Source: Xanthobacter dioxanivorans | Lineage (GTDB): Bacteria > Pseudomonadota > Alphaproteobacteria > Rhizobiales > Xanthobacteraceae | Direction: 5' to 3' | Length of the DNA: 64,000 nucleotides | Assembly (NCBI RefSeq): GCF_016807805.1 | Contig: NZ_CP063362.1 | Span: 2,956,501-3,020,500, forward strand | Shown: positions 12,007 to 58,134 of the stretch, in pieces | Numbering within the stretch: position 1 is the stretch's first letter | Layout of the letters: every line of letters starts with the position of its first letter | The notes under the pieces: generated by a model | Seen by the model: only the letters and a program-made list of their open reading frames with translations | Databases searched by the model: none | What the model was told of the DNA's origin: nothing | Translations under genes and position numbers: made by a program

Positions 12007-12030
12007 CAGGCGCGCTGGTGGCCGCGCCTG
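12007..12030. terminator. Likely bidirectional terminator hairpin between convergent genes
   Basis: CAGGCGCG and CGCGCCTG form a perfect 8-bp stem with an 8-nt loop, in the short gap between the convergent transglutaminase and matB genes. No T-run follows on either strand. Confidence 0.4.
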
Positions 12031-12072
12031 ATGGGACCCTGATGGGACCGGTCAGGCCGGGCGTCGGCGGCG

Positions 12073-13614: not shown

Positions 13615-13687
13615 GTGCCTCTCACGCGCCGGCCGCGGCCGACAGATCGCCGCCCACCGGCTTCTTCAGGTGTGGAGCCGTGCCGGC

Positions 13688-15058: not shown

Positions 15059-15252
15059 GGCATGGCCCCCACCCATGGAATGTCAGAGTCTGCTGCCGGA
15101 TACCCTATGGGACGGCGGGAAACGGGCAATGGCAAGGCCTCGCGCGCCGTTCCGGCGCATCTCTTTCGGCGGAGGCCGGCCGGGCGCCCGGCGATCGCCG
15201 CGCGATGGCGGCGGGAACGGAGCACGGCAGCCTTCCCAGCGTTCATGCATTG

Positions 15253-15281
15253 AATGAAGGACAATATGCATTTATTGTCAA
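15253..15281 (-). promoter_or_regulatory. Candidate sigma70 promoter for matA-matB
   Basis: On the minus strand a consensus -35 TTGACA (15281-15276) is followed after 17 nt by TTCATT (15258-15253). It lies across the palindrome 15261-15278, so a repressor bound there would block it. Confidence 0.45.
15261..15278. promoter_or_regulatory. Candidate MatR operator 1 (palindrome)
   Basis: Perfect inverted repeat ACAATA / TATTGT with a 6-nt centre (TGCATT), in an A/T-rich island inside very GC-rich DNA. It sits between matA and matR and overlaps the matA -35 box. GntR/FCD regulators bind short palindromes of this kind. Confidence 0.55.
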
Positions 15282-15290
15282 TCATCATGT

Positions 15291-15313
15291 ATGCAAGATT
15301 ATATGACTTGCAT
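15291..15313. promoter_or_regulatory. Candidate MatR operator 2 (palindrome)
   Basis: Perfect inverted repeat ATGCAAG (15291-15297) and CTTGCAT (15307-15313) around a 9-nt centre that holds ATTATAT, a plausible -10 for matR with TTGTCA at 15275-15280 as -35. Binding here would give autorepression of matR. Confidence 0.55.
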
Positions 15314-15354
15314 TGAGCGAGGGGGCGCGGCTTCCTTGTAGCCGGGAGGCGAAC

Positions 15355-16029
15355 GTGCGTGGCGAGCAGACCCCGAGGCTGCGGGAGGCGCTGGAGGACG
15401 ACATCGTCTCCGGCCGGCTCCGGCCGGGCCAGAGGCTCGACGAGGCGGGCCTCGCCGAGCGCTTCGCCGTGTCGCGCACGCCCATCCGCGAGGCCCTCAT
15501 CCAGCTCTCCGCTTCCGGCCTGGTGGAGATCCGCCCCCGGCGCGGCGCCTTCGTGGTGCTGCTCGGCCCCCGCGCGCTCCTCGAATCCTTCGAGCTGATG
15601 GCGGAGATCGAGGCCGCCTGCGCGCGCCTCGCCGCACAACGCATGGGCCCGGCCGACATGGCCGCCATCTGCGCCGCGCATGAGGCCTGCCGCGGCGCGG
15701 TCGCGGCGGGCGACGAGGCCGCCTACTATCCGGCCAATGCGGTCTTCCACGGCGCCATCTACGCCGCCACCGGCAACCGCGTGCTGATGGGCGAGGCGCT
15801 GCGGCTCCAGCGCGCCCTTCAGCCCTATCGTCGCCTGCAGCTGAAGGTGCCCCGCCGCATGGAGGCTTCCTTCGCCGAGCACGAGGGGATCGTGGAGGCG
15901 CTGGCCGCCGGCGACGGCGTCGGCGCCGCCGAGCGGGTGCGCGCCCACGTGGTGGTGCAGGGCGAGCGCTTCATGACCCTGCTCGCAGCGCTCCAGGCGG
16001 AGGCCGAGGCCCTGGACAAGGCCGGTTGA
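15355..16029 (+). CDS. matR: GntR/FCD-family regulator of malonate genes (MatR)
   Basis: 224-aa DNA-binding repressor with an N-terminal winged helix-turn-helix (LAERFAVSRTPIREALIQL, about residues 30-50) and a C-terminal all-helical FCD ligand domain. Metal/ligand-type residues are seen in NAVFHGAIY and EHEGIVEAL. I chose the GTG at 15355 because a near-ideal GGGAGG site lies 6 nt upstream; the TTG at 15313 has none and falls inside a palindrome. It diverges from matA, the standard matR position. Likely ligand is malonate or malonyl-CoA by analogy with rhizobial MatR. Confidence 0.88.
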   Translation: MRGEQTPRLREALEDDIVSGRLRPGQRLDEAGLAERFAVSRTPIREALIQLSASGLVEIRPRRGAFVVLLGPRALLESFELMAEIEAACARLAAQRMGPADMAAICAAHEACRGAVAAGDEAAYYPANAVFHGAIYAATGNRVLMGEALRLQRALQPYRRLQLKVPRRMEASFAEHEGIVEALAAGDGVGAAERVRAHVVVQGERFMTLLAALQAEAEALDKAG

Positions 16030-40307: not shown

Positions 40308-40333
40308 GATCGTCGCCCCGCTCGGCGACGATC
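40308..40333. terminator. 10-bp hairpin between convergent genes
   Basis: GATCGTCGCC (40308-40317) and GGCGACGATC (40324-40333) pair perfectly with a 6-nt loop, touching the stop codon of the restriction-modification gene. Likely bidirectional terminator. No T-run. Confidence 0.5.
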
Positions 40334-43300
40334 AACTGGCGCGGCGCCGGCCCCGACGGCGCTTCGCAGCGGGCTCTTCCTCTACCGACTGCGGAAGAAA
40401 TTCGGGGGACTGGAAGTCCGCCTGCTTCCCTGCCTTGCCGGTGATCGGCAGTTTCATGTGGGTCTGGCGCCGCTCGCCGTCGGGCTTAGGGGGCCGCTTA
40501 GTCGTCCGTGCGGATGGGCCGGCTTCGTCAGCAGCGGCCCGCGCCAGGTTGAGCTCCAACAGCCGGGCCAGCGCATCTTCGTCGGAAATGTCCGCCGGCC
40601 AGCCATAGGCTGCAGCGACGGCACCATCGAGTTCGCGATGCGCATCGATCAGCCACTGCGGGCGCCGGTTGTAGAGGTTGGTCAGGGTGCGCTCGCGCAG
40701 GATCGCCGCCGCGGCAGCGTCTTTTGGAAGAATGCGGTCCGGAAAACCAGGGACCACTTCTTGCTCGATGCGGGCCAGGTCCGGAGGATTCAGCCAAGCC
40801 TGGCGCAGGTCGTCCAAGCGCTTTGCTGTCTGCGTTATGGCTTCAGCGCGGCGATCTCGTAGGACGCGCGCGATCGGAACATCAGGTGTTAGTCCGTCGG
40901 GGAACGGAAATGTCTCGAATACCGTCGAATTATTATAGGTCGGGTCATTGCCAACGCCATGCCACGAGCACGTTCTCAAAGACCACAACTCATGAAACCT
41001 AGAATGCAAGACGCCAAAGAAAAAATCGTCAGAACGAATGAATGAAAATATTCTGGAATCTGGCACATCACAGGCGTTCAACCACATGAATAGCCGGTGC
41101 TTGGCGACTCTTGGTGTCGTGAGATAACGAGCATGTTGCCGGACCGCTGTACGAAAAGCCGGTCTCGGCTCTACATGCCGCCACCAGCGTTCGCGATAGG
41201 CATCACGTCGGTTCTGAGAACGTTCGGGGAGCACGTGATCCTTCACATGCTGGAACGGAGCCTCATGAAGGGACGCCTCCTGTTCCGTCATCACCCAGCC
41301 GAAATCGATGATCCACATATCGCGCGACCGGCGCGTCACATCCATGCCGTTGCGCCAGGGCCGCAGTACGTCAGAGTTAGGTCGTCCATTCGGGTTGAGA
41401 GGCATCTGGAGCCACGCTCGCGCGAGTTCTCCCGGGACGTCAAACGCGCCACCCTTCGTGTCGCCCATGAATGCGACGCCAAGGTTCTCCTTGAGACGGC
41501 GCGCCTTGGTCAAGTCCATCGTGCCCGAGGTCAGGTCAGCATTAATCTGGGGGACAGGCGCTCCGTCGAGTTGGCAGGCGTCCTCCCCATTGCCGAAGCA
41601 AATGAGGGACACACGAACCGCCGCACCATCGACCACCCACGGCTCGTCGCTCCAGGCCTCGAAGATCCGGCTTTCAGCTACGATCTGTTCTACCACCTTG
41701 CGGTTGGCGCCTCCGCGGATGGAATTGGTCGCCACCAAACCGACCCTCTGCGAGCGTCCGCCCTTGACGGCAGCCAAAGCGTGCTCGAACCAATAGCAGA
41801 CAAGGTCAGCCTCCCGCGTTACACGCCCATCGTATAGGTTGAAAAGACGATCTACGACCTCATCTCCAAGCCCATGCCGGAGCAGCTTCCCGCCGAGAAA
41901 CGGGGGATTGCCGACGATAAAGTCCGCGCGGGGCCAAATGGTGGGGCGATAGGCGGTCCTGGCATTAGGACCGGCCAGCAAGTCCATCTGTCCGCCGCGA
42001 TCAGGTGCAGGGACGCGCTCAATGAGGGCATCCGCGCCCTCGATGGAATTCAGCTTTCGAAGGACCGGGACCTCGTGGGTGTGGATCCCGTTCCGCAGGC
42101 GCCATTGGATATCGCCGATCCAGATCGTCGTTCGTGCGAGCTCGGCGGCGAGCGCATTGACCTCAATGCCCAGCAGGATTTCAGGGCCAACGGCCGGCCA
42201 ACGCGACTTCAAATCCAGCATCTCACAATCGAGGTTCGCCCGGTTCTCGATGTCCTTCACACCCTGTAGTGCAAGATAGAGGAAATTGCCCGAGCCGCAG
42301 GCCGGATCGAGAATCCTCAAGTTGCAAAGCTTCTCGATGAATGCGGATCGGACCTCTTCGGCGGCCTCCTCTCGGGTCATCCGACGGCGCTCTTTCTTTC
42401 GCATTGGCGGCTGGGACGTCCCATCCAGGAGACCCACAATTTTTCCTTTGGTCACCTCCCATTCAGCGCGGAGAGGACGCAAGATCACTGGGTCGATGAT
42501 CCGACCGATCTTGTCCGCGTCGGTATAGTGCGCGCCAATCTGGGCCCGTTTCTTCGGATCAAGGAAGCGCTCGAACAGCGTGCCGAAGATTGTCGGGTCG
42601 ATCAGGCTCCAGTCGAGGCTGTCGGCAGCAATCAAAAGGCCGATGTCACCTTCGTCCAGCGGCAGAGCTTTGCGTCCGTCGAAGAGCCCTCCGTTGAAAT
42701 GCATGACATCGGTGAGTGCAAAGTCGCCGCCCTTCTCCATGGCTTCGAACAGGCCACTAAGGTAGTCGCGCGCTTTGCCGGGATTTTGCGCTGCACGGCG
42801 CAACAAAGTGGTAAAGATCCCGCCGCGGAGAAGGCCAACGCTCTGGGCAAAGAAGCAGAACACCAGTTGGTTCACAAAGTGCGCGATGTCTTCCGGAGCA
42901 CCTCGCCCCTGCAGACGCCAGGCAATGGTGGAGAACTTGTCGGCCGCCTCCTTCGTCAATCCGGCTCTGGTCCGTGTCGGCTTGAGCTTCTCGGGGTTGA
43001 AGAACAGATTATAGAGGATCTCTCGCGGGGCCGGATCAGCTAGATCGTCCAGGTTAATTTCGTAGGTCGCCGGGACTGTATTTGTCCAAGCCGTGTGGAT
43101 GCGAAAGCGCTGGATGTCACAGACGACGTGAAGCGGCGGGTTCTCCAAGGCTGGGGCATAGCGCATCAATTGAAGAAGGGCGCCATCCAGATCACCGTTC
43201 TTCTGCTTGTATTCCCATGCGAAGTAATCCCTCTTCCACACGTCGGCAAAGCCACGACCACCCCCGACCTTGCTCGCGCCTTTCTCGAAGGCGAAGAATT

Positions 43301-43457
43301 CGCCTCTGGGATCATCCTCCGTCGGAGTTGGATGGCCGACCAGGGCGCAGAGGTCAATAAAATGCTCTTGCGCAGACTGTCGTTCATTGAGGGAAGCCGA
43401 TTTCCATTTCTTGATGAAGGCAAGCGGCGTCATCTGCGTGCGAGCGCCGGCACTCAT
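40332..43457 (-). CDS. MmeI-like (type IIL) single-chain restriction-modification enzyme
   Basis: 1041-aa fusion that should both cut and methylate DNA. The N-terminal nuclease motif fits the MmeI pattern D-X9-E-X-K: Asp72, Glu82, Lys84. A helical linker follows, then an N6-adenine methyltransferase with the SAM motif DPACGSGNF (384-392) and catalytic NPPF (517-520). The C-terminal third would be the target-recognition domain and sets specificity. Enzymes of this class usually have about 900-1000 residues and need no partner subunit, which agrees with the lack of other R-M genes nearby. It lies between early phage genes and the late operon, a typical cargo place. The tail is Arg/Lys-rich. Confidence 0.87.
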   Translation of the reverse strand: MSAGARTQMTPLAFIKKWKSASLNERQSAQEHFIDLCALVGHPTPTEDDPRGEFFAFEKGASKVGGGRGFADVWKRDYFAWEYKQKNGDLDGALLQLMRYAPALENPPLHVVCDIQRFRIHTAWTNTVPATYEINLDDLADPAPREILYNLFFNPEKLKPTRTRAGLTKEAADKFSTIAWRLQGRGAPEDIAHFVNQLVFCFFAQSVGLLRGGIFTTLLRRAAQNPGKARDYLSGLFEAMEKGGDFALTDVMHFNGGLFDGRKALPLDEGDIGLLIAADSLDWSLIDPTIFGTLFERFLDPKKRAQIGAHYTDADKIGRIIDPVILRPLRAEWEVTKGKIVGLLDGTSQPPMRKKERRRMTREEAAEEVRSAFIEKLCNLRILDPACGSGNFLYLALQGVKDIENRANLDCEMLDLKSRWPAVGPEILLGIEVNALAAELARTTIWIGDIQWRLRNGIHTHEVPVLRKLNSIEGADALIERVPAPDRGGQMDLLAGPNARTAYRPTIWPRADFIVGNPPFLGGKLLRHGLGDEVVDRLFNLYDGRVTREADLVCYWFEHALAAVKGGRSQRVGLVATNSIRGGANRKVVEQIVAESRIFEAWSDEPWVVDGAAVRVSLICFGNGEDACQLDGAPVPQINADLTSGTMDLTKARRLKENLGVAFMGDTKGGAFDVPGELARAWLQMPLNPNGRPNSDVLRPWRNGMDVTRRSRDMWIIDFGWVMTEQEASLHEAPFQHVKDHVLPERSQNRRDAYRERWWRHVEPRPAFRTAVRQHARYLTTPRVAKHRLFMWLNACDVPDSRIFSFIRSDDFFFGVLHSRFHELWSLRTCSWHGVGNDPTYNNSTVFETFPFPDGLTPDVPIARVLRDRRAEAITQTAKRLDDLRQAWLNPPDLARIEQEVVPGFPDRILPKDAAAAAILRERTLTNLYNRRPQWLIDAHRELDGAVAAAYGWPADISDEDALARLLELNLARAAADEAGPSARTTKRPPKPDGERRQTHMKLPITGKAGKQADFQSPEFLPQSVEEEPAAKRRRGRRRAS

Positions 43458-43655: not shown

Positions 43656-44114
43656 CTACCCGGCTTCGTCTTCAGGGTCGCAGAACACGATCTTCGCCCC
43701 TTCGGGGGCGGCTGGCTGCGGCAGGTGCTCGCGGCGGATGATGACGACGATGCCGGGCTTGACGGTGGTCGTCTTCTCCGCATCGGCGGCCTCCGCCATA
43801 TCCTCCAGCAGCCGGATGGCCTGCACAGCGGCGCCCTTGGCTTCGTCCTGATCGCGCAGCTCGGCGAGGCGGTGCACGTTCCGCGGCCGGTGCGATGCCT
43901 TGAAGGCAGCCATCTCCCGGTTCAGCGCGGCCCGGAAGCTCGGGTCCTGGGCGCACATGCGGGCGTTGCGCTCCGTCATGCCGGCCTCGACCGCGGCATC
44001 GGTGAGCTTCAGCCCGCGCCACACCATGGCGTCGACCAAGGCCCGGCGCTTCGGGGTGAGCGGGTCCGGCTCGGCGGGTTCGGGGAGCAGCGGGTTTTCG
44101 GTCTCTTCTTCCAT
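43656..44114 (-). CDS. Phage protein with terminase-small-subunit-like helix-turn-helix
   Basis: 152 aa. The N-terminal half (TPKRRALVDAMVWRGLKLTDAAVEAGM) resembles the DNA-binding domain of terminase small subunits, followed by a helical segment. No large terminase is beside it, so packaging function is unproved. Ribosome site GGAGGACG. It is the last clear gene of the leftward late operon, 12 nt after the HU-like gene. Confidence 0.65.
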   Translation of the reverse strand: MEEETENPLLPEPAEPDPLTPKRRALVDAMVWRGLKLTDAAVEAGMTERNARMCAQDPSFRAALNREMAAFKASHRPRNVHRLAELRDQDEAKGAAVQAIRLLEDMAEAADAEKTTTVKPGIVVIIRREHLPQPAAPEGAKIVFCDPEDEAG

Positions 44115-44126
44115 CGCGTCCTCCCA

Positions 44127-44654
44127 TCAGCGCAGGATGATTTCGGCGAGTGGCGCCGACGGCCGCGGTGCGGGCGCAGGTGCGGGCGGCAGGGTTTCTG
44201 GCCTCACCGCCTTGCGCCGCGTGCGTTTCAGCGGCGGGCCGCCGGGCTGGATCGACTTCTTCAGCAGCGGCGAGGCGCGGAACTTCAGCGACCAGCGGGT
44301 ACCGTCGCCAGGGACCGCCCGGATCAATGACTTCGAGACGCGAACCTGAGCCATCCGGCGGGATGGCAGCGGCTTGTGACCTGGCCGATTTCCCTGGAGC
44401 GCGACCGTGGTCCCGCCGAACCGGCTGTGGAAGGTGCCGAAGCCGGGGATCTGCACCTGGCGCCCGGCGGCCAGCTCGCGGGCAATCACGCGCAGGATGA
44501 TGGCCGGCATGTCGCTGGCCAGCAGCCAGACGTCCTTGCGGTTCCGCGCGCCGCGCTTGCACCCGAGCGCCCGCCGGGAGAGGGGCTTCCAGCGCCGGCG
44601 GATTTCCGCCCGCATCCGGTTGCGCATGGTGTCGCGCGTCTCGACGCGGGTCAT
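44127..44654 (-). CDS. HU-like DNA-binding phage protein
   Basis: 175 aa from 44654. The middle has the HU/IHF-type pattern VIARELAAGRQVQIPGFGTF (about 60-80), preceded by an Arg/Lys-rich helix. The C-terminal third is proline- and arginine-rich and unlike HU. A histone-like DNA-binding role is inferred. Its start overlaps the upstream stop by 4 nt. Confidence 0.6.
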   Translation of the reverse strand: MTRVETRDTMRNRMRAEIRRRWKPLSRRALGCKRGARNRKDVWLLASDMPAIILRVIARELAAGRQVQIPGFGTFHSRFGGTTVALQGNRPGHKPLPSRRMAQVRVSKSLIRAVPGDGTRWSLKFRASPLLKKSIQPGGPPLKRTRRKAVRPETLPPAPAPAPRPSAPLAEIILR

Positions 44655-45073
44655 TCGGCGGCCTCCGTGATCACCTCTGCGCATTTCTGCTGGTCCGCTT
44701 GCGCCTGCGCCTCGCGCCGCCGGTTCCGGCCAGGGAGGCGCACAAAATCCTGATCGGTGCGACGGCGCATGTCTCCGCCGACGAGCGGGAGCCGGAGCTG
44801 CGCCGGATCGGGTTCGGCCCGAGGCGCCGGCGGGCGGAGCTCCACGAGGGCGATCTGAACGTCGAGCGCCACCAGCAGCAATTCCAGGGATACCGGCCCC
44901 AACCGGCGCCCACTGTCCCGGTCCCAGGCTTCGAGCTTGCCGGTGTAGCCGTCCTGGAGCCCCGCGCGATCGTCCACCTCCATCTGCGTGAACCCGAGCG
45001 CTACCCGCCGCGCCTTCAGCGCGTCCATCAGGCCGCGATAGTCCCGGCAGAAGGCGATCGGCTCCAGGCTCAT
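44651..45073 (-). CDS. Helix-turn-helix phage protein
   Basis: 140 aa. A Cro/CI-like helix-turn-helix is visible in LKARRVALGFTQMEVDDRAG (about 19-38). The C-terminal half is charged and Arg-rich. It lies in the late operon and overlaps its neighbours by 4 nt on both sides. Regulatory target unknown. Confidence 0.65.
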   Translation of the reverse strand: MSLEPIAFCRDYRGLMDALKARRVALGFTQMEVDDRAGLQDGYTGKLEAWDRDSGRRLGPVSLELLLVALDVQIALVELRPPAPRAEPDPAQLRLPLVGGDMRRRTDQDFVRLPGRNRRREAQAQADQQKCAEVITEAAE

Positions 45074-45435
45074 CCGATGCGCACCGCCTTTTCCGCCATG
45101 GGCGAGAGCGCCCGGGACGAGCCGCAGTCCGGGCAGGCGAGCGCAGTGCCGAGGTCTTCGGGCGCCCGGTCGAGATGCTCGGCCGCGAGCTCCTCGAAGC
45201 TGATGCGGGCAACGGCGCGGCAGCTCGGGCACCAGGCGGAGAGGCGGTTGAAGCCGAAGCCGGCGAGATAGGCCAACGTGATGGTGGACGAGGCCGTTGC
45301 GGGAAGCGGCAAGGTGCGCTGGGCCGGACGGCGCGCGGAGCCGAACGACTCCATCCGGTCGGTGGCGACGGTCGGCCGGGAGAGGCTGTCCTCGGGCTTC
45401 CAGCGGCGGGCGCGGCCCCAGTTCATGCGCGTCAT
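45070..45435 (-). CDS. Zinc-ribbon phage protein
   Basis: 121 aa from the ATG at 45435 (MTRMNWGRARRW). The C-terminal part has two Cys-x2-Cys knuckles (CPSC and CPDC, about 30 residues apart), a zinc-ribbon pattern. Function unknown. It overlaps the large protein gene upstream (ATGA) and the helix-turn-helix gene downstream. Confidence 0.65.
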   Translation of the reverse strand: MTRMNWGRARRWKPEDSLSRPTVATDRMESFGSARRPAQRTLPLPATASSTITLAYLAGFGFNRLSAWCPSCRAVARISFEELAAEHLDRAPEDLGTALACPDCGSSRALSPMAEKAVRIG

Positions 45436-47837
45436 CGCACACCTCGCGGCAGCGCGTCGCCCGGCGCCCACCAATAGGACTGCCCGAAGTCGCGCTGGGC
45501 GGCCTTCTCCGACCGACGGAAGGAGGCGCGATAGTCCGGATCCACGAGCGTCTGGATCTGGTCGAACAGCAGGCGATCGACGGCGAGGCGCGTGTACCAG
45601 AGGGAGGGGTCGTAGCGCCTGGCGGTGCGCACCGCCTCGGCGCCGAAGGTGGTGTCGGCCCCCTCCATCAGGCGCCGGAGCTGCTGCGAGGACAGGCGCG
45701 CCACGTCCTCCGCCGCGCCGATGGCCGGGCCGGCGAGGTCCGAGACGGGCGAGCGGCCGGTGCGCGAGGTGGAGGCATTGATCAGGTCGCCGTACACGCC
45801 GAGCGAGCCGGACTGCAGTCCGGAGCGCACCCAGAAGCCGGGCGTGTCCATGGCCTCCGGCGTCTTGCCGTAGAGCACGGCACGCGCCTGGATCGCGGCT
45901 GCGCCGGCAAGCAGGTTGAACAGCACGAAGGCGGCGCCGTTCCACACCCGCTGCTCGATGGGCCCCTGGGTCGCGAGGCGCATGAGATGTGTCGCGACCA
46001 TGGTCATGCTGAACGACTTGAAGAGCGTCGCGCTGCGGACCATCTCGCCCCAGAAGGTGCCGGCTGTCGTGCCGCCGGTCATGACGGCGCGGATGCGGGC
46101 GTCGGGCTCGAGCACCGCGAAGGCCCGCTCCTCGATCATGGCGCCCAGCAGCTTCTCCCGCAGCGCCCGGTCCCCGATCGCCTCGGTGTCCAGGAAGCGC
46201 GCGCCCTCCACCTCCAGCGGCGCGCCGGCGCGGATCGTGTCCCATTCCTTCGCGCTGATCTGGTGGCGGTCGAGGAAGTTGGCGAGCGGCGCGTCGACCT
46301 TGCGCAGGGCGTCGAGCGAATGCCCGGCATGGTCCGCGAGGTGACCGGTGAACTCCATGGTGAAGACCCGTTTCATGGTGTCGGTCCACCATGCCAGCCC
46401 CTGCGCCCGGATCACGGTGGTGGCCATCGCCCGCAGGATCTGCGGCCCCGACGCCTCGCCGGCGAAGCGGACAAAGCTGTGGGCGGAATCCATCGCGGCG
46501 TGCGCGGTGAGCTGCAGGCGGGCCGCGATCTGGCGGCTCTCCTCGCCGCCGCGGCTGATCTCGCGGATGACGCCGGTGAGGATGCGGCCGGGGTCCATGC
46601 CATTGTAGGAGGCGGCGAGCGCGGTGGTGACGCTGTCGCCGGGGATCGCCGAGACGATGGCGCCGCCGAGCTTGGAGGCGACGTTGAGCGAGCGCAGCCC
46701 GCCGAAGAACCCGGCCATCAGCGGGCCATCCACGGCGTTGGCGCGACCGGTGAGCACGTCGTAGGCGCGCTCGGCGATGGACCGGCTCTCCAGCATCCGC
46801 AGCGGGTTCAGTCGCTGCCAGCGCGACAGGCCGGCTTCCTCCTCCTTCGCAAGGGTGAGGGCAGCGCGGACGATGGCGCCATGATTGGGGCCGATGACCT
46901 CGGCGAGGGCGATCTCGTTCGCCATGCGTTGCAGGTGGCCGGTGAGGACGCCGAAGACATTCTGCCCGGAGCCGTACTTCTCCTGGAGCCGCAGCCAGGC
47001 CTCCGCGCCCGCGGCACCGTCCGCGAACTGGAAGGTGCGCTGCTCGGGCGAAAAGGCGGTGCTCGCGCTGTCCCCCACCGTGATATCGCGATAGGCGCGC
47101 TCCAGCACGAAGTCGCGCCGGTCGGCCTTCGCCGGGGCGCCGGTGTCGCGGTCCCACAGGGTGAGCGCACCGCGATCCAGCTCGGCGGCGAAGTCGGCCT
47201 TGAATTCCTCACGGGTGAACGCGCGCACCCGGAGCGTGTCCCAGAACTGCGGCAGGCGCCATGCGTCGGCCAGCGGGACGTTGCGGCCGGCCGCGAGGAT
47301 CCGGTCCGTGCCTTCCTTCTCCGCCGCTTTCCAGCCCGCCGCCGCGGCTTTGGCCATTCCGTCACCGGTCTCGACGTCGAACAGCTCGCGCACGAGGTTG
47401 CGCACGCCGGCGATCTGCTGGCGCGACTGGCCGGCGATGCCGGGAGAATAGGCCTCCAGCGCCTGGCCGAACTTCGCCGAAAGCTGCGCCCAGATGACCT
47501 CACCCTTGGTGGCGACGTTCTCGCCGCCGGCTTCCCAGATGTCGCGGGTGAGCATGGACATGACGCCAGCAACGCGGCCCTTGGGGTGCGACAGGACACG
47601 CCGCTCGGCATTCGCCCAGGCGAGCGCCTGCGTCGCCGTGTCGTTCTTCAGCCGCTTGGCCGAGGATTCCAGCGCCCGCGCGGCGGCGAGGCCGGCGGCC
47701 GCCTCCGCGCTCGCCGGGCCCATGGTGCGGCCGAACTCGCCGCGGGAGCGCTCGTAGAGGCCGAGGGCCTCGTCCGCGATCTGCCGCGTGATCTGGCCGG
47801 TCTTCACCAGCTTGTCGATGCAATCCACGACGCTCAC
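45432..47837 (-). CDS. Large phage internal-virion-like protein (801 aa)
   Basis: 801 aa, GTG start with a GGAGGTGA ribosome site overlapping the previous stop (GTGA). The protein is largely helical with hydrophobic stretches (about 380-420 and 660-690). It resembles the C-terminal large-polyvalent-protein-associated regions found in ejection proteins of alphaproteobacterial podoviruses (for example the SLNVASKLGGAIVSAIPGDS and YNGMDPGRILTG segments). As third of three giant proteins after a small gp14-like protein it takes the place of a T7 gp16 analogue. Role in DNA ejection is inferred from order and size; I see no catalytic motif. Confidence 0.7.
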   Translation of the reverse strand: MSVVDCIDKLVKTGQITRQIADEALGLYERSRGEFGRTMGPASAEAAAGLAAARALESSAKRLKNDTATQALAWANAERRVLSHPKGRVAGVMSMLTRDIWEAGGENVATKGEVIWAQLSAKFGQALEAYSPGIAGQSRQQIAGVRNLVRELFDVETGDGMAKAAAAGWKAAEKEGTDRILAAGRNVPLADAWRLPQFWDTLRVRAFTREEFKADFAAELDRGALTLWDRDTGAPAKADRRDFVLERAYRDITVGDSASTAFSPEQRTFQFADGAAGAEAWLRLQEKYGSGQNVFGVLTGHLQRMANEIALAEVIGPNHGAIVRAALTLAKEEEAGLSRWQRLNPLRMLESRSIAERAYDVLTGRANAVDGPLMAGFFGGLRSLNVASKLGGAIVSAIPGDSVTTALAASYNGMDPGRILTGVIREISRGGEESRQIAARLQLTAHAAMDSAHSFVRFAGEASGPQILRAMATTVIRAQGLAWWTDTMKRVFTMEFTGHLADHAGHSLDALRKVDAPLANFLDRHQISAKEWDTIRAGAPLEVEGARFLDTEAIGDRALREKLLGAMIEERAFAVLEPDARIRAVMTGGTTAGTFWGEMVRSATLFKSFSMTMVATHLMRLATQGPIEQRVWNGAAFVLFNLLAGAAAIQARAVLYGKTPEAMDTPGFWVRSGLQSGSLGVYGDLINASTSRTGRSPVSDLAGPAIGAAEDVARLSSQQLRRLMEGADTTFGAEAVRTARRYDPSLWYTRLAVDRLLFDQIQTLVDPDYRASFRRSEKAAQRDFGQSYWWAPGDALPRGVR

Positions 47838-50800
47838 AGGGTCACCTCCGGCATGGGCATGGCGCAGGCGCGGATCTCCGCCGCAGCGGCAAGGCGGGCA
47901 TCGGCCTCGTCCATGAGCTCGTCGACCGAGCGCATGTCAGCGACGCGCGCGCCGGTTTCGTCGAGCCGTTCGCCGACGGGGATCTGCAAGTCTCGGGTGG
48001 CCCGCAGCTTGTCCAGATCGTGGAGCACCGCGGCCTCCGTCTCCTCCGACGAGCGGGCGGCGAGCACCTTCGCGGGCATCAGCTCCGGCGCGAGGGCCGC
48101 GAGCTGCTCCGGGCGGACGGGTGCGGCGCGCGATGGCGAAGCTGCGGGCGCGACCTCCTGTTCCGGCACCGCCAGCATGCGGTCCATGACGCCGCGGATG
48201 TCGTCCGGGATCGGATCGCCCAGGTCCGATACGGCGCGGTAGATGCTGGTCAGCCATTCCTTGAACTGCTCAAAGGCGCGGGCGAGCGCGGACGACGGCG
48301 CCTTGCCGTCCCGCAGGTATTGCTCAAAGCCCTGTGCCCACTTCTCCTGTTCGGCGCGACCGATCTTCGCCGCGTCGTCCACACCGAGCCAGCGCAGGGT
48401 CACATCCAGGTCCGCCTTCACCGCCGGCGACACCTCGGCATCGCGCACCATCTCCGAGAGCCACAGGTGCGAGGATTCGTGCATGAAGGTGGAGGCGTCG
48501 CGGCCCTGGAACAGCTCGATGACGGCCCGGTTGTCGGCCATCGTAATGGCGCCGCGGGGTGGCCCTCCATTTTCCTGGAAGAAACGTCCCCCCGGCGGCC
48601 GGTACATCGCCTCCGATATCGAATGGTCCGCCTTCCGCCCCTTGTTCGGGACGAACCCAAGAGAGCGATACCAACGCTCCAGCGCGGATTTAGACCCACC
48701 AAAGTCGCCGGATGGCGTCAGCGCGACCGTTTGCCCATTCTGGTCTGCCACTTCGAGCAGTCGGCGCATGAATTGGGTGCCCACGCCCGCACCGCGCTGC
48801 TGAGCTGGGATGGCGATCTTATCCAGGACAAGCACATTTCCGCCATCCCGCTCCCCGAGCCAGAATTCGACGGACGGAAATTGCTCCTTCAACTGACCCC
48901 GAAGCACTTCCGTGCTGACCTTCGGCGCATCGCTCCGGCGTTGATACAGCTTTTCCCCTGAATAGGCCGAGAACACCCGGTCCGGCCGCAGCACCACCAC
49001 CTGATCGGCGCCATCATGCTCCATTAGCCCGCGCACGACGATGGTGTCGTAGCCGTGCTGCTGCCCATAGCGCACCGCCGCGCTCAGGGCACCGCTGGAG
49101 CGCATCACGCGCCGCGAGCGCTCCACCATGGCGGCAATGTCGGCATCCGTGGCATCCGGAATCACGGCGCGGGCCGCCCGCGCTGCCTCCGTCTGCGTAT
49201 CCGCCTGCGCAATCTGGTCCGCCAAGCGCTGGCGGGAATGCGCGTCGAGCTGGTTCGCTGGGATCCAGCTCCCTTCCGCGCCCCGCCCCTGCCGATCGCT
49301 GTTCGCGGCGTGCAGCAGGTCGATGAACTCCGGATCGCTGCGGATCATCTCCGGCAGGTCGAGCACCTTGAACCGGCCGGGATCGACCTTCACCTTGAAG
49401 ATGCGCGGGCCAGCGCCCTCGGTAGCGCCGGTGCCCGACGCATAGGTGGCCGCCATGCCAGGCGACGGGGCGAGGAACAGGCCGCGCTCGTCCGGCGGAG
49501 TGTGCGGGTTGGTGCCGTTTTCCGGGTCGAAGCGCTCGAAATCCGTCGTCGCCTCGGTGCCGTGATAGAGCGTCCATTCCTTCGCGCCGGCGTCCACGTG
49601 AACTGGGCCGCGCGATTCCCCGCGCGCCGCAGCGGCCGGCGGCGGCGCCTTCACCTCGGTGCTGACCCCGGCCGCCTTCAGACGGTCGAGCCAGGATTGC
49701 GGCAGGCTGTCCGGCCCGAGCACCTCCGGCGCCTCGGCCGCGCGGATGTCCACGCCCTCCTTCCGGTAGAGGTCGAACGCCTGTTCCGGCGACAGGCCCA
49801 GCCGGCGGGCACGCGTGTCGTAGCGGGCGGCCCAGATCGCTGCGCCGGCGGCGGCCCGGCCCTCGGGTTCGCCCGCCGCAATGAGCTGGCGATACACATC
49901 TTCTCGGACCGCAAGCGCCGCGCCGGTCAGGCGGGACTGTGCCGGCTGCAGGCGGTTTGCCGCGAGGGTGCCTGGCAGAGTCTCGGTGATGGTGCGCGGG
50001 CGCAGCAGGAGCTCGTCGAGAATGGCGAGAGCTTCGTCATCGGTCCGCGCGCGAGCAACGGCCGCGGCGACAATGGCGGCCTCCTCGCGCGGCATTTCAT
50101 AGCCCACCTCGCGGGCGAGGCCCTGGATGCGCTTGCGCGTCTGGTCGGTCCAATGGCCGACACGGGCCCGCTGCGCCGCGACGGGATCCGGGCGGCCGGG
50201 GCCGGGTGGCGGCGCGGGCTGGGTGCGGCGCTGCTCCAACGCACGGTCCACCAGGTGCTCGGTCACCGACCGCAGCACCGCATCGGCGCCGTCATCGCCG
50301 GCACCGAGGATCTGGCCGGCGATCTGCTCGGCCTCCTCGCGGGACAGACGGACGCCGTATCCGTCCTGCGCAAGCCGGGCCACGGTGCGGCGCATCTCGG
50401 TGGTGACCGCCTCGCGGCGGCCGGCGGCGCGCTGTTCGTGGGCGGTGATGCGGCGGGGCAGATCGGCGTCGGCCTTGTCGAGCTTGGCACGGGCCCGCGC
50501 ATCGGTCTGTTCGGCGCGGGCCAGCGCCTTCTCCTTTCGGGCGAGCGCGGTGCGCAGCCCCTTCGCCTCTCCCGAGAGGCTAGCGATGGCGCGGGCATCT
50601 GCCGGAGCGGTGGCGGTGAGCGTCTCGGTGATGGTGGCCCGCTCGACCTCCAACTCGACGCGGCGCGCGGTGGGCAGGCCCTCGGCGGCGAGGTCGGCCT
50701 CAATGGCCGAAAGGCGGGCCTGCGTGTCGGGATCATTCGGGGCGCGGGTCTCGGCGAGGCGCTGCTCCGCGGCCGTGAGGTCCGTGCGAAGGCCCTCCAC

Positions 50801-51996
50801 CTCGGCGCGCAGGGCGTCGCGAGCAGGAGCGCGCTCATCGAAGGCGGCGCGACGGGCGGCGAGACTGTCGGCTTCACCCCGCAGGGAGGCAAAAGCGTCC
50901 GAGGCTTCCTGTTCGAGAGTCCGGGCCGTACTGCGGATTTCGTTCAGCTGCAGCTCGCTCAGGCGTTCCATCGAGGATGGCAGGCGTGCCCCTTCGCGCT
51001 CCAGGGCGAAGGCCGATTCTTCCGCGGCGCGCGCCTTGCCGCGGGCTTCCAGCACGGGATCCAGGCGCTCGCCATAGGCGCGCAACAGGTCGGGCGTGAT
51101 GGTATCGGACACGTCGACGGGGCGGCCGGACACGAGCGCATCGATCGACTGCTGGAGCGCCGTGCGGTGCGCCATCTCGCCTTCGACAGTGGGCACGAGA
51201 TTGGTGGCGTCGATCTGGCCTTCGCTCGCCACCACATTGCCGGCGTCGCGCACGGAGCGCGGCCAGGAACCAGTCTTGTAACGGCTCCAGATGGCAGCCA
51301 GGCCCTTCGCCCCCCGCCGAGCACGCCGCCTGCGACGGCCGCGTTGAGCACATTCTCGGCCGCCTCGCCGATCGCGCCGTAGCCCGGCTCGACCTTCTCC
51401 TTGAACGGGGCGGCGATGGCCTCGATGCCGACCTGGGTGCCGGCCGTGATGCCGGCGGTGGCAAGCGCCGTGCCGAGGATGCCGAGCGCCTTCGGCGCAG
51501 CGAGCGGCAGGGTCACGATGTTGACGGGATCGGCGGCACCGGCGGACAGGGAGCCCAGCAGGAGGCCGGCCGTGCCGCCCCAGGTCTGCTCCCGTGCCGC
51601 GGCCTTGCGGTATGCCTGCCGCGCCCGGCGCGCTTTCTCCTCGCCGAGGCGATCCAGGTCCTCGGCGGTGAGCGGCTTCAGGCCCAGCTCGGGGAACTTC
51701 GGCGCGAGGGCCGCGATCTGGCCGTTGAGCTCGTCGAGCGCCGCGCTGCCGCCGCCGAGGGGTGCGAAGGCCGGATTGACGAAGGTGGTGCCGGTCTTCT
51801 CGCGCAGGCCATCCAGATATTCCTGGACGCCCTGCATCCGAGCGGTGCCGGAGGAGACGGACTGGCCGAACAGGAGCCCCTCTTGCCAGGCGGCATCGAA
51901 GGCATCTGAGAACTCCAGCGGCAGATCCTCGGCGAGATGCTGCTGGGCATAGTCGAGGGATTCGTTCTGTCCCTTGGTGAAGATCCCAAAGCTCAT
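47834..51996 (-). CDS. Giant polyvalent phage protein (ART-like, GNAT-like, HExxH), frameshifted as sequenced
   Basis: Starts at 51996 (MSFGIFTKGQN) with a GGAGG site, overlapping the previous stop by 4 nt. One base is missing in the C run 51310-51315: the frame leaves VAGGVLGGG and resumes at AKGLAAIWS. Restored length is 1387 aa. Domain order by eye: membrane-active-looking Ala/Gly-rich N-terminal part (to about 240), long coiled coil (about 330-480), helical middle, ADP-ribosyltransferase-like segment (LYHGTE near 810, GLFLAPSPGMAATYA near 840, to about 1010), GNAT-like segment (PAQQRGAGVGTQF near 1050), then a zincin motif HESSHLWL near 1171. This matches the polyvalent proteins of phages described by Iyer, Aravind and colleagues, which are delivered with DNA to subvert the host. 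Confidence 0.75.
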
Positions 51997-54989
51997 CGAC
52001 CACCTCCCGGCCAACTGGAGGGCTCTCGGCCGAAGTTCGACTGGGTCCAGGGGATGGCGGGCGACGAAGGCGGCATCCCCCACGCGCGGGTTGCAGGCGG
52101 CTGTTTGTCGTCGAGGCGAAGGACGAACGGGCGGCCGTCGTCGCCCGCGGCGTATTGTGGGGACTCGGCGTTGCGGTTGAGCCGGACGAAATAGCGCCCT
52201 GGGGCGAAGGATTCGAGCGTGGCACTGTCGCGCAGATATTGAGCGGTGACCGGCTTGCCCGACGTCGTGCGGGCGCCGGCGAGGTCGGTGTCGGTCAGGC
52301 CCAGCAGGATGTTGTCGAAGGCGGATTGGTCCATACCCCGCTTCGGCGCCAGGATGGTCGCACCGTTGTGGCGCACAGTGCCGCCGGTCACCTCCTCGAC
52401 GGCGCGCTCCAGACGCTCCCGCTTCAATACGCCGGAGGCGTCGCCGGCGCCGGCGGACAGGTCGGCATAACGGGCACGCACGGCAGCCCGCATGATGGCG
52501 TAAGCCTCGCGCTCGTCGGTCCGGTGCCCAATCGAGAAGGCCGATGCCGGAAGCGTGGTGTCGAGAGCCTCGGTGAACGCCTGCGCCTCGGATTCCTTCT
52601 GCGGCACAAAGCGCGGCTCGGCGGCGAGGGCGTCCCGGCCGCGGACGATGCCGGCGGCGACATCCGGCGCATCCTTCGCCAGCCCGCCGGCGAACGCGAG
52701 CACCGCGCCTTTCGCCCCCGTCTCATGCAGCTTGCCGAACGTTGCCTCGCGCACGCCCGGCGGCAGGGTGGCCAGCGCACCGAGGATGCGGACCTTGCCG
52801 CTCGTGTCCGCCATGTCGAGCGCACCCGCGAGCGAGCGGAGATCCTCGCCCTCGAACGCCGGGACCGGCCGCCGGAGCTGATTGGTGACCAGCATCGCCG
52901 CCCGCGCGTGAGCCTGCATCGCGGCGGCCACCTGATCGTCCGAACCTTGCCAGGGAACAGGCGGAGGGGGCTTGATCCAGCCGGCGCGAACGCCGCGCAG
53001 GAGCGGCGTCTCCTGCTCCATGCGCTGGAGAGTGGCGAACCGCTCCTCGTCGTCGAGCAGCGCGGCGCGGGCCGCATGATTGCCACCTGCCGCGGCCTGC
53101 TCCAGGCTGTTCCGCAACACCTGCCGCGCATCCGGCGACAGGTCGAGCAGGGCGTCCGTGCGCTCGGCATCGGCGAGGAACTCGACCGCCTGGCGCTTCC
53201 GCTTCTCGTCCAGGAACGGGAAGATCCGCCCCGAGAGGAAGGCGACATCCTCGTCGCCGATGTGCCATTTGCCCACGGACTTCTTCGCGTCCGCCATCAT
53301 GCCGTCGAACGTGGTGCCAGCCCACTGGCGCAGGCCCGCGATCTGCGAGGCGGGCAACCCGCCTGCCGCGATACCCTCCTGCTGGCCCTGAGCGGAGGCG
53401 GGAAGTGGGGACGAAGGCCGATCCGGACCGGAACCGACGATGTCGGCGCCCATGCGGCGCGCCCATTCCTGATCCGGTCCTTCAATGCCAAAGCGCTCGC
53501 CGCCGTGGGCCGCCACGCCGGGGCCGCCGTTGAACCGCACCGTCCCGCTCGCGTTGCCGGTGGCGAACTTCCCGACGTTCGATCCGGCGAGCGCCGCAGA
53601 GACCGCCCCGTCATAACGCGCGGCAATGTTCGGATCGGAGACGAATTGTGCCGTGCGCTGGTGCGTGACCGCCGGGAAATAGTCCCCGATCATGGTCTGC
53701 GCCAGCGTCTGCCCGCGCGCGGCAGCGCGGTTCATGATGGTCTCGATGAACGCCTGCTGCGCCGCTGGCCCCTGGCCCCCGACCTCGGCCTGGGTGAGCG
53801 CGGCAAGGCGCGCCTTCACCGCCGGGTCCTGAAGCTCCTGGCCGAAGCCCATGCGGGCCGTCGCGAGGGCCGGTACCTTCGGGACATCGCCGAGTGATCC
53901 CCGCTGCCATTCCGACGTGGGGATCGAGAACTGCCCGCGGCGGCCGCGGCCATATTCCATCGCATAGGTGATGCGGGCCGCACCGATGGTGTCGCCAAGG
54001 GAGAGCATCCTCTGGCGCAGAAGGTCGCCATCCGCTTCCAGGTCGACACCGTCCCGGAGCGCCGTGATGGTGGGCTCGGCGAGCGCGCGGATCTCGCGGA
54101 TATCCTCCGTTGCCTCGGACTTGCGCGCGGCGACGTGCGCCTTCACCAGGTTGAACCGGCTCTGCCGCTCGGCCTCGTCCATCCGCAGGCTGGGATCGAA
54201 GATTGCCGTTTCCGCCTGCCGCAGGGCCTCGTGCGGCCCGACGTGGTCATAGGTGGCATCGACGGACGACAGCACGGCCGCGGCCCGGCCACGGTCTTCG
54301 AGGCGGCGCAGGCGGTCTTCTACGACCGCAGGCCCGTAGCCCCAGCGGGGGGTCTTCCCGAGCTCGCCGAGGATGGCCTTCGCGTTCTCCGCCTGGGCGA
54401 GATACTCGCCGCTCTCCACGCCGCCTCTGCGGGCCAGCGCCACGAGGTTGTCCGAGACCGTGTTCAGCTGAGTTTCCAGCGCCGTCTTGGCATTGGCCTG
54501 GTCGACCGCAAACCGTTTCTCGAACAGGTCCGTGAAATGGCCCATGCGCAGCTTGTCGAGCGCCGTGGAAACGGCCGGCCGCAAGACAGGGTCCTGCTTC
54601 GAGACAATCTCGCGATTATAGGCTTTGGCCGCGACATCGAAGCGAGCCGGCTCATCCTGATATTTTTGGCGAAGCTGGAGATAATCTTCCCCGGTTTTCG
54701 TCTGGAGGTCCGCGAAATACTTCGCCCGCGCACCGCGTTGCGCTGCTTGCCCCAGCACGCCGAGCGTCGCCATCTCCGTGATCTGCGGCTGGCCGTCCGG
54801 GCCGATGGTGACGGCCTCTGCCCCGCGGGCCTCGGCCTGCTCGATGGCGGCGGGCAGCACCGTGTCGGCGAGATTGTCCATCGCCCGGGCGAACATGGCG
54901 TACGGCGCGGCGATGTCGGCCGGGGAGATGCCGTTGCGCGGGCCTTCAGTAACCACCAGGCGATGGGGATACTCGGGAAGATCGACCAC
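51993..54989 (-). CDS. Large phage virion protein with cell-wall-hydrolase-like domain (998 aa)
   Basis: 998 aa, GTG start with GGAGG. The N-terminal third is coiled-coil-like. Near 410-450 LAALTQAEVGGQGPAAQQAF followed by ETIMNRA resembles the Glu-containing core of SleB-type wall hydrolases or lytic transglycosylases. This would open the peptidoglycan during DNA entry. Position and size fit a T7 gp15/gp16-type ejection protein. It lies between the gp14-like protein and the polyvalent protein. Enzymatic activity is inferred from a loose motif. Confidence 0.68.
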   Translation of the reverse strand: MVDLPEYPHRLVVTEGPRNGISPADIAAPYAMFARAMDNLADTVLPAAIEQAEARGAEAVTIGPDGQPQITEMATLGVLGQAAQRGARAKYFADLQTKTGEDYLQLRQKYQDEPARFDVAAKAYNREIVSKQDPVLRPAVSTALDKLRMGHFTDLFEKRFAVDQANAKTALETQLNTVSDNLVALARRGGVESGEYLAQAENAKAILGELGKTPRWGYGPAVVEDRLRRLEDRGRAAAVLSSVDATYDHVGPHEALRQAETAIFDPSLRMDEAERQSRFNLVKAHVAARKSEATEDIREIRALAEPTITALRDGVDLEADGDLLRQRMLSLGDTIGAARITYAMEYGRGRRGQFSIPTSEWQRGSLGDVPKVPALATARMGFGQELQDPAVKARLAALTQAEVGGQGPAAQQAFIETIMNRAAARGQTLAQTMIGDYFPAVTHQRTAQFVSDPNIAARYDGAVSAALAGSNVGKFATGNASGTVRFNGGPGVAAHGGERFGIEGPDQEWARRMGADIVGSGPDRPSSPLPASAQGQQEGIAAGGLPASQIAGLRQWAGTTFDGMMADAKKSVGKWHIGDEDVAFLSGRIFPFLDEKRKRQAVEFLADAERTDALLDLSPDARQVLRNSLEQAAAGGNHAARAALLDDEERFATLQRMEQETPLLRGVRAGWIKPPPPVPWQGSDDQVAAAMQAHARAAMLVTNQLRRPVPAFEGEDLRSLAGALDMADTSGKVRILGALATLPPGVREATFGKLHETGAKGAVLAFAGGLAKDAPDVAAGIVRGRDALAAEPRFVPQKESEAQAFTEALDTTLPASAFSIGHRTDEREAYAIMRAAVRARYADLSAGAGDASGVLKRERLERAVEEVTGGTVRHNGATILAPKRGMDQSAFDNILLGLTDTDLAGARTTSGKPVTAQYLRDSATLESFAPGRYFVRLNRNAESPQYAAGDDGRPFVLRLDDKQPPATRAWGMPPSSPAIPWTQSNFGREPSSWPGGGR

Positions 54990-55007: not shown

Positions 55008-55454
55008 TCAGGACGAGCCGGAGGGCTTCATGCCGCCGTAGCCGATCTTCGCCATGCCGGTGACGGCATCGAGCCCGCCGCCGTAGAGCGCCATGTTCGC
55101 GGACGCGCGCCGGAAATCGGCCTCGTCCCGTTTCGCCGCCGCCTGCATGTCGAGCGAGCCGACGCGGATCTGCCGCTCGCGGTCGGCGATGCGGCGCTGC
55201 TCGTCCAGCACCGCCCCGGTGGTCGGGCTGTCGAGGCCGACATTCGAGGATGCGCGGATGGTCGACACCCGGCTCAGCGTGCGGTTCAGCTCCTCGCGCA
55301 GTTGCGTGTCGGTCTGCGCCGCCTGTGTCTTCGCCACCATGGCGTCACGCTCGGCCGCCGCGGCGGCATAGCCCTGCGCCTTCGATTCCCCGTATGCCTT
55401 GAAGCCGGCCGAGGCGCCGGTCAGGGCGGCGAGGGCGAGAGTTTCCGCGCCCAT
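55008..55454 (-). CDS. Phage internal virion protein, gp14-like
   Basis: 148 aa from the ATG at 55454. It begins with an Ala-rich membrane-type helix (ALAALTGASAGFKAYGESKA), followed by a Gln/Arg-rich coiled coil, and ends in Gly-rich sequence. Small membrane-seeking proteins of this build (T7 gp14) precede the two large ejection proteins in podoviruses, as here. It shares one nucleotide with the preceding stop (TGATG). Confidence 0.65.
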   Translation of the reverse strand: MGAETLALAALTGASAGFKAYGESKAQGYAAAAAERDAMVAKTQAAQTDTQLREELNRTLSRVSTIRASSNVGLDSPTTGAVLDEQRRIADRERQIRVGSLDMQAAAKRDEADFRRASANMALYGGGLDAVTGMAKIGYGGMKPSGSS

Positions 55455-55663
55455 CACATGCCCTCCAGCGGTCGGCGAATGCTCGCGATGTCGGCAAGCG
55501 CGCGGTTCAGCTTTTCGACGAGCGTCTCATCCCTCCGCGGCGCCACCTGCGCTTCCGCAAAGCGGGGCAGGTTGCTCGGGCGGGCGAGATGGGACGGGAA
55601 CGGAATGACGGGCGCCGTGCCGTCCACGGCGGGGATAGGTGTCTCGGAGAGCGGGTCACGCAT
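55454..55663 (-). CDS. Small hypothetical phage protein
   Basis: 69 aa from the ATG at 55663 (MRDPLSETPIPAV) with a GAGAGGA site. The C-terminal half forms a short helix (LVEKLNRALADIASIRR). No known domain. First gene of the late operon proper; a conserved 35-bp element lies about 125 nt upstream. Confidence 0.6.
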   Translation of the reverse strand: MRDPLSETPIPAVDGTAPVIPFPSHLARPSNLPRFAEAQVAPRRDETLVEKLNRALADIASIRRPLEGM

Positions 55664-56404: not shown

Positions 56405-57499
56405 TCATTGCTCCCCATTGGAGCAGAGCGGGATTATCGCCGCCTTGCCGCGGAACGCGGCGCTGGCATATCCGTCAAACAGCGGAAAATCCTTCGCATT
56501 CTTCTCCGCCGAAAAATCGGTCCGCCCGTAGCAGGCCATTGCGAGCTGTGACGGCAAGATGTCCGTGTCGCGGAAATCGGCGCGCGATACGTTGGCTCCG
56601 TGAAACTGCGCGCCCTTAAGGGTCGCCTTGCGGAAATCCGCGCCGCTTAGGCAGGCCCAGTCGAACCGCACGTTCCTGAGTTTGGTGTCGATGAAATGCA
56701 AAGTGTATTTGCGGCGAAGATCCGGGTATTTGGGCTCGGAAGCCGTGTTGCGATCGCGTAGATCTAGGCCCTTCGCCTCCACATCTGCGCTCCATCCATC
56801 GATGTCGTAGTCACAGCCCGCAACGCCCATCATGGTGCTGTTGGAGAGATCCATCCCCGTCAAATCGGCGGCGACGAGCGACGAGCCGGACAGGTTCATC
56901 CAACGCAGCCCAGTGCCCCGCGTGACCTTCTCTCCCCAATGATCGAGCCGGACCCCCGCTAGGCACTTTCGTTCGAGGAGGAGGCTGAGCGCGCCATCAT
57001 TCGCCTCAATCCGGTTCGCAAGCAGGGTTAGGGCCAGCGTGGTGCGGCTGTTGTCGAAGTCCGGCTTTTCACATTGCGGGTCCTTCGCGTGCGGAATGGT
57101 GCGGATCACATCCCGGTAGGCCGCATCGTGAAAACCCTGGGGCGATATCCTCGCAAGTCGGTCGAGGAAGATGAGGCGTGCATCGCCTTCGAGCTTGCCC
57201 GCATTAATATAGGCGGTGATATCGTCGCTCTGCTTCTTCAGCTCGCCTTCCAGGACGGTGATGTTGTGCCCTACGATGGCCGCCACGAAGGTGAACACGA
57301 AACCCGAGCCGATGACGATCTGCGCGATGGTCTGTCGCAGCTTGTTCCGGGCGTCGTCGTAGGCAAGCGCCTGCGTGATATCCGCAAATTCCCGGTGCGG
57401 ATACTTCTTGCGGGGAAGAACAGCAATGGAAAACGCGGCGAGGCCGGCATAGAGCACGATGAAGATCGCGATGCCGATCCACAAGGACGTCATGCCCAT
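56405..57499 (-). CDS. Membrane-anchored pentapeptide-repeat protein
   Basis: 364 aa from the ATG at 57499. Two N-terminal membrane helices (LWIGIAIFIVLYAGLAAFSI at about 6-25; IAQIVIGSGFVFTFVAAIVG at about 59-78), a helical linker, then pentapeptide-repeat sequence from about residue 190 (NLSGSSLVAADLTGMDLSNS; later LSGADFRKATLKGAQFHGAN). The quadrilateral beta-helix would face the cytoplasm. It lies at the phage/recombinase boundary and looks like cargo. Function unknown; a role in host interaction or defence is speculation. Confidence 0.8.
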   Translation of the reverse strand: MGMTSLWIGIAIFIVLYAGLAAFSIAVLPRKKYPHREFADITQALAYDDARNKLRQTIAQIVIGSGFVFTFVAAIVGHNITVLEGELKKQSDDITAYINAGKLEGDARLIFLDRLARISPQGFHDAAYRDVIRTIPHAKDPQCEKPDFDNSRTTLALTLLANRIEANDGALSLLLERKCLAGVRLDHWGEKVTRGTGLRWMNLSGSSLVAADLTGMDLSNSTMMGVAGCDYDIDGWSADVEAKGLDLRDRNTASEPKYPDLRRKYTLHFIDTKLRNVRFDWACLSGADFRKATLKGAQFHGANVSRADFRDTDILPSQLAMACYGRTDFSAEKNAKDFPLFDGYASAAFRGKAAIIPLCSNGEQ

Positions 57500-58134
57500 T
57501 GCCAGCCCCCGACGGCAATCCCAATCCCGCTGCAACCTGCCGAGGCTGCGCCAAGCCACGGCGTGTCAGCGCAATGTATACGTGTGCACCCTATACACGA
57601 AATGCTAAAACGCGAAAATTATGCCCTCAAGGTGTGCCTATTCCCGGTGATGGACGGCGATCCCGCTCCATTTCTGCGCCGCGACAGGGAAAATGCTGGC
57701 GGCTCGGGGCGTCGCTGGGGAAATGGGGTTACCCGCAAACTGTGGCTGCTGGTTCACCTCGATCTGAGGCCCGCGGCGCGGCCGCGGGCGGGGATGGAGC
57801 ATATCGTTGCCGTGTGCCGCGGACTGAAAAACAATGAGGCTGCCGCGGTTGCGCAGATCGCGCCGACCTTTCCCGGAAGGAACTTCGAGCCAGAAAAAAT
57901 TTGACCCCGGATCGTTTTCGGCTCCGTTGCGTGGGCGATGTAGGAGCCCGACGGCGGCCGTCGGTTTTTGCCCCCCACCCCCTCCCGCGCGTTCTCACGT
58001 GCGAAGGCCCCGGGTGTGGGGGCACGTCGACCTTCCCCCGCGAACGAGGTGCCGCAGACGACGCTCCGGATCGCCGCAAACCATTGGAGTGACGTGCAAT
58101 TTCCTCTTGACGAGCTGCCCCGCAGGCCCGAGCG
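57500..58134. other. Stretch without a convincing gene
   Basis: 635 nt between the pentapeptide gene and the recombinase. A frame at 57602-57904 (+) would encode 100 aa (MLKRENYALKVCLFPVMDG) but has no ribosome site or known relatives that I recognise, so it is doubtful. TGTATA and TATACA (57575-57580, 57592-57597) form an inverted repeat upstream of the pentapeptide gene, where its promoter should lie. Confidence 0.45.

Follow-up and report, generated by a model that had tools for sequence, protein, structure and literature searches.

Are the enzyme-like segments of a phage ejection-type protein fixed parts of the virion machinery, or a load that can be present or absent at one site? This question is raised by a long minus-strand gene in a 64,000-nucleotide stretch of the Xanthobacter dioxanivorans genome (hereafter the window, within which all coordinates are given), which begins with a Met codon at 51996 and ends in a stop at 47834, and for which the original prediction had proposed a polyvalent phage protein combining ADP-ribosyltransferase (ART)-like, GNAT-like and metallopeptidase-like segments. 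We find that all three lie in a cassette nested inside a conserved protein of ~783-801 aa, and that the whole cassette is absent from a second copy of the phage module on contig C3 of the same genome. The gene most likely belongs to a short-tailed phage that survives as a decaying prophage, and specifies a polyvalent protein of the internal (ejection) module with a single tolerant site, flanked by two conserved blocks, that takes effector cassettes. The parts of the gene, all on the minus strand, are as follows; "piece" denotes its 1156-aa stop-free part.

51318..51996, minus: N-terminal part in its own frame, with the start Met at 51996; 75% identical to residues 3-232 of the C3 homologue
51300..51350, minus: frame-change site at which the gene is broken; the C3 homologue is split across two frames here
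49934..51304, minus: conserved surrounding protein, piece residues 1-457; 78% identical to the C3 copy, 41 homologues
about 48116..49969, minus: cassette of ~1854 bp (1.85 kb), in the order A - ART - GNAT - Z, defined by the blastn gap against the C3 copy
49736..49912, minus: module A, a short upstream bracket, piece residues 465-523; detected by a hidden Markov model (HMM) in 32 of 45 compared proteins
48932..49615, minus: ADP-ribosyltransferase-like domain, piece residues 564-791; AlphaFold2 pLDDT 69.9, pTM 0.72
48593..48913, minus: GNAT acetyltransferase domain, piece residues 798-904
48161..48565, minus: module Z, HExxH domain, piece residues 914-1048, with HESSH at 48467-48481
47834..48115, minus: conserved C-terminal tail, piece residues 1064-1156; 84% identical to C3 residues 709-799

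The cassette and its empty counterpart

All motifs on which the proposal had been built were found in place (LYHGTE at 49570, GLFLAP at 49483, QQRGAG at 48802 and HESSHLWL at 48481), and the ART-like, GNAT and HExxH domains are indeed present together in one uninterrupted frame, the stop-free piece window:47834-51304:- of 1156 aa. Their conservation in relatives, described below, goes beyond chance. The reading frame shifts near 51300-51350, so that the N-terminal ~230 codons alone are read in a different frame from the remainder, and residues 3-232 of the C3 homologue match one frame of the window gene and residues 247-704 the other. The frame change was left unmended, and the two pieces were searched and folded separately. 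By speaking of a "repaired protein" the original prediction had recognized this break, but it did not weigh the break as decay and missed the cassette nature of the segments. Intact 783-aa copies of the surrounding protein are present elsewhere, and the C3 homologue is an uninterrupted 801-aa protein; given the broken frame, the full-length protein is probably no longer made from the window copy.

Comparison of the two copies defined the cassette. In a blastn alignment of the window with the C3 locus (L004), window positions 49970-53362 matched 12526-15911 and positions 43682-48115 matched 8049-12474, with nothing between, so that 51 bp stand in the C3 copy in place of the cassette. At the protein level, the C3 homologue matches piece residues 1-457 (78%) and 1064-1154 (84%), again with nothing between. 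We then searched for the surrounding protein with query residues 1-456, a search that reached proteins of ~636-2023 aa and scored the 7993 best-sharing candidates, and obtained 41 homologues besides the window's own. The insertion site, judged against the C3 protein, is read through and hence empty in 35 of the 41. Elsewhere it is variously loaded: P0007 carries A-LPD23-Z, P0056 a PBECR1-like insert and P0075 another insert (Z was detected in neither of these two), and in P0039 module A occupies the site and the protein then ends; the state of the site could not be decided in P0077 and P0078. The empty form is therefore the commonest in this sample, and one site accepts different cargoes, which, as judged from their predicted domains, come both with and without A and Z brackets.

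Of 119 family genomes, 4 contain relatives of the 1156-aa piece; one of these is its own (G000), and the other three match only around A and Z. For the C3 protein, matches came from 2 of the 14 genus genomes, namely G000 and a marginal case at E 3e-4, and among 150 order genomes from G000 alone; the scan of the 119 family genomes and one of the scans with the C3 protein were capped at 6 scored candidates per genome. No report of a single-site cassette with empty alleles was found in the literature searched, which included portions of Iyer et al. (PMC5512222) and of PMC8954989, PMC9503650 and PMC12810830. Because loaded and empty copies occur in one genome, with other cargoes in relatives, the locus offers a natural with/without comparison, which separates the parts of the virion machine from cargo and renders the proposed release by a protease directly testable. 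It is in this natural pair, rather than in the combination of domains, that the value of the locus lies.

The predicted enzyme domains and modules A and Z

The ART-like fold that had been claimed was borne out by AlphaFold2 prediction and by structural matches, and the window domain has a predicted ART fold. The toxins ParT, NatT, RES and MbcT were the best matches, PARPs came after, and the list includes 6kyf, titled anti-CRISPR protein, as a fold match only. Three database relatives besides the window itself were found for the ART region (best E 7e-140). Catalytic-type residues, the possible loss of which had been singled out for checking, are conserved: the His of YHG and a Tyr are kept in all eight distinct sequences, window included, and in the AlphaFold2 model the first strand holds the His, while the Tyr lies where the helix following the second strand ends. 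A conserved [D/E]Q pair begins strand 5, where ART-PolyVal has Asp. Profile comparison with PF18760 (ART-PolyVal, Tox-ART-HYD2) was weak (E 0.003, probability 10%) and gapped at the start of this strand, so either residue of the pair may be the active one. The window domain gave no Pfam match to PF18760, and its relatives fell below the gathering cut-off of 31.2 bits (P0006, 28.4; P0005, 19.2; L044, 21.5; L057, 18.8).

Structure prediction and structural matches likewise upheld the GNAT-like fold, which is accompanied by the R/Q-x-x-G-x-G/A loop; the domain is 41-49% identical to three phage or database relatives. Its best structural match is the anti-CRISPR protein AcrVA5, an acetyltransferase, and this match is one of fold only.

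The metallopeptidase-like segment fared differently. Of 148 distinct aligned Z domains, 146 carry HExxH, and the remaining two are partial alignments that do not contain that part; HExxH and two later Glu do not vary in any of the 15 rows of alignment A2, as in a metal site. The later Glu, which sits in a later predicted helix, is kept in 144-145 of the 148 domains, a count that is partly built in because the pattern used to fetch loci contains later Glu residues. The predicted Z model is all helical, with HESSH inside a helix and low confidence ahead of it. Solved zincins were absent from the structural matches of the GNAT-Z model, whose match lists are filled by the GNAT part, and Z gave no match in Pfam. 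When Z was compared by hhalign with 17 sequences of PF18818 (MPTase-PolyVal), the local alignment covered 12 columns at HExxH (probability 63%, E 7e-5 for this single comparison) and the global alignment 103 columns (probability 28%). The HExxH and later Glu of the claimed segment stood, and its zincin fold is a putative one, the model being all helical, no solved zincin being among the matches and only the HExxH stretch aligning with PF18818. We use "zincin" for Z as a putative label that refers to HExxH plus the conserved Glu residues, and the third domain of the cassette is probably a protease.

To compare arrangements, we assembled 45 proteins, comprising 35 database hits picked by cassette likeness, together with the window piece, its C3 counterpart and whole or partial proteins taken from fetched loci and phages. 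Module A was detected in 32 and Z in 41; in every one of the 32 A-bearers Z lies downstream of A, and the content between A and Z varies widely. Modules A and Z bracket the predicted cargo. One viral protein (L057:2310-5759) has two Z domains flanking A-ART (Z-A-ART-Z).

Recurrence of the combination and its known relatives

The original prediction had considered this exact combination worth a search. Two sets of viral loci were collected, and plus-strand open reading frames (ORFs) of at least 120 aa were scanned in both. The Z-derived set comprised 80 loci retained from at least 534, and its loci were fetched using a pattern in which the later Glu residues of Z were included; the GNAT-derived set, fetched with GNAT motifs in an alignment-based scan, comprised 80 kept of 83 found, and a GNAT scan with a single protein as query found nothing. 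The two sets share contigs (e.g. L034/L119) and hold near-duplicates, so the counts of loci do not represent independent events. Among the 80 Z loci, A lay upstream of Z in 54, GNAT before Z in 13 and a window-type ART in 4, and in 19 Z alone was detected with these HMMs. Among the 80 GNAT loci, 39 had A followed by GNAT and then Z; 9 of these, many of them near-duplicates, also have an ART-PolyVal-type match and so unite ART, GNAT and HExxH in a single protein. Pfam confirmed both ART and GNAT in the two proteins scanned, those of L126 and L140. None of these 160 loci paired the ART type of the window with its GNAT. The search was thus made, but the recurrence in 9 of 80 GNAT loci, together with the description by Iyer et al. 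of ART beside GNAT, means that the combination is of a kind already known.

That description concerns polyvalent proteins (Iyer et al. 2017, PMC5512222), in which metallopeptidases are given as the commonest domain and an ART typically adjoins one of two GNAT families. The window protein likewise has several unrelated enzyme domains, on a mobile element and beside virion genes: at least two domains of predicted unrelated activity stand in one polypeptide, and the adjacent genes belong to phrog_418 and phrog_684. On its predicted domains, the window protein is therefore a polyvalent protein, a known class. Such proteins are predicted, mostly untested, weapons injected with phage DNA.

Several individual systems resemble it in part. 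Bbp10 of Bordetella phage BPP-1 has LPD22, A, cargo and Z in one protein, with a Z stretch 36% identical to that of the window, but its cargo is a PBECR1 RNase-like domain (LPD22-A-PBECR1-Z) instead of ART and GNAT, and a phrog_684-like part was not detected in it. The Z domain also occurs in Caulobacter phages that grow on C. vibrioides CB15. Among DarB-like proteins annotated as antirestriction, the window GNAT is 50% identical to a stretch in Serratia phage Parlo and 41% identical to one in Pseudomonas phage Skulduggery; the Parlo protein differs in having additional helicase and methylase domains. The viral proteins of L126 and L140 also unite A, GNAT, ART-PolyVal and Z, but in the order GNAT-ART-Z (L126) or ART-GNAT-ART-Z (L140), with an ART that scores as PF18760 and an LPD22 N-terminus. 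As a working model for the window ART, T4 Alt is an injected ADP-ribosyltransferase (PMC5512222, PMC9503650), but it belongs to another ART clade (R-S-E), which a passage of PMC5512222 places outside genuine polyvalent proteins. Co-ejection with DNA has been reported for the P1 Dar proteins (PMC12810830), and exchange of peptidoglycan hydrolase domains is known in gp15/gp16-like ejection proteins (PMC8954989).

Virion setting, possible action and state of the prophage

The gene had been described as encoded among ejection proteins, and it does adjoin internal-virion-type genes:

45432..47837, minus: downstream virion protein of the phrog_684 family ("virion structural protein", E=2e-129), overlapping the gene end by 4 bases
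51993..54989, minus: large upstream protein "LT" (phrog_9153), in a gp15-like ejection-protein position by gene order only
55008..55457, minus: T7 gp14-like internal virion protein (phrog_418 "internal virion protein", E=4.5e-4)

The Pfam T7_gp14 match of the gp14-like protein (E=0.017) is below the cut-off, and the N-terminal part of the broken gene weakly matches phrog_342, "internal virion protein with endolysin domain" (E=0.013). LT is conserved in C3 and, in the same gene order, in viral contig L009, where the gp14-like protein is 89% identical to that of the window, LT is 53% identical over residues 1-724, and a single protein, A-ART-Z with a phrog_684-like end, follows. Fusion to the phrog_684 part was found in 8 of 117 Z-bearing ORFs; fusions of this kind occur in P0004/L009/L029 (one protein or nearly), L030-L032, P0009 and P0024, and also in L216, and a phrog_684-like ORF directly follows in L043, L044, L057, L217 and L218. 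These fusions and the gene order tie the protein to the virion; they are not proof of injection.

What is seen in the sequence is one polypeptide region with three predicted domains, flanked by ejection-type genes on one side and a virion protein gene on the other. We propose that the protein would be packed in the head and ejected along with the DNA, that Z may cut within the cassette, freeing or activating the cargo, and that ART with NAD+ and GNAT with acetyl-CoA would modify host proteins early in infection, candidate targets being RNA polymerase, translation or defence proteins. Module Z accompanies the cassette and is absent from the empty C3 copy. Alternatively, Z may work in phage assembly, trimming the polyprotein before packaging and not inside the host, as Iyer et al. 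proposed for P1 DdrB (PMC5512222); Z proteins are fused to, or adjoin, the virion protein, which fits such a role, although we regard it as rather unlikely. A bolder version of the injection proposal, which we put forward tentatively and with the balance leaning against it, is that the ejection proteins of these short-tailed phages contain a dedicated cargo bay in which A/Z-bracketed cassettes swap, with Z arriving together with the cargo as the releasing protease. If so, a phage would be armed by swapping one cassette. In its boldest form, this reading would make ART and GNAT paired anti-defence enzymes, in view of their fold matches to 6kyf and AcrVA5.

Expression from the prophage, protecting the lysogen against other phages, was also considered. 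Iyer et al. suggest such a use for captured proteins (PMC5512222), and the C3 element shares with the window a neighbouring MmeI-like type IIG restriction/methylase gene; the gene order next to internal-virion-type genes and the fusion of relatives to a virion protein nevertheless speak for delivery with the virion, and make protection of the lysogen quite improbable.

Returning to the prophage itself, the same genome contains a third copy of the module, with deletions, at C1:4788-4794 kb (L005, G000:C1:4780000-4799999, about 8700-13900). Its LT and gp14-like proteins are 100% identical to those of the window, the phrog_684 and MmeI genes are present as fragments, and the surrounding protein is truncated. 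No head or packaging genes were recognized in the ten neighbouring ORFs scanned in the window. Together with the frame change, these two observations point to a decaying prophage. Its host is probably a member of the Xanthobacteraceae, and so an alphaproteobacterium, as judged from the names of the nearest database proteins (Xanthobacter, Ancylobacter). The frame change, the lack of recognized head genes and the deleted third copy would also fit the window protein being a non-functional leftover, without a present role, whose domain conservation reflects recent decay. This view comes close to an even chance for the window copy; however, 1156 codons are still open with catalytic-type residues retained, the C3 copy of the protein, though empty, is in one frame, and the argument concerns the window copy and not the family.

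Other features of the locus were noted. LT, too, has an internal module that has been exchanged: its residues 1-365 and 544-998 are 79-80% identical to the C3 copy (window 51993-54989 vs L004:14541-17822), and residues 365-544 are replaced in C3 by a longer stretch that has no match in the window LT and hits phage families, tail fibre ones among them. The MmeI-like gene occupies window positions 40332-43457 on the minus strand, with 74% amino acid identity in the C3 element, and a gene for a pentapeptide-repeat protein (56405-57559, minus strand) adjoins the ejection module.
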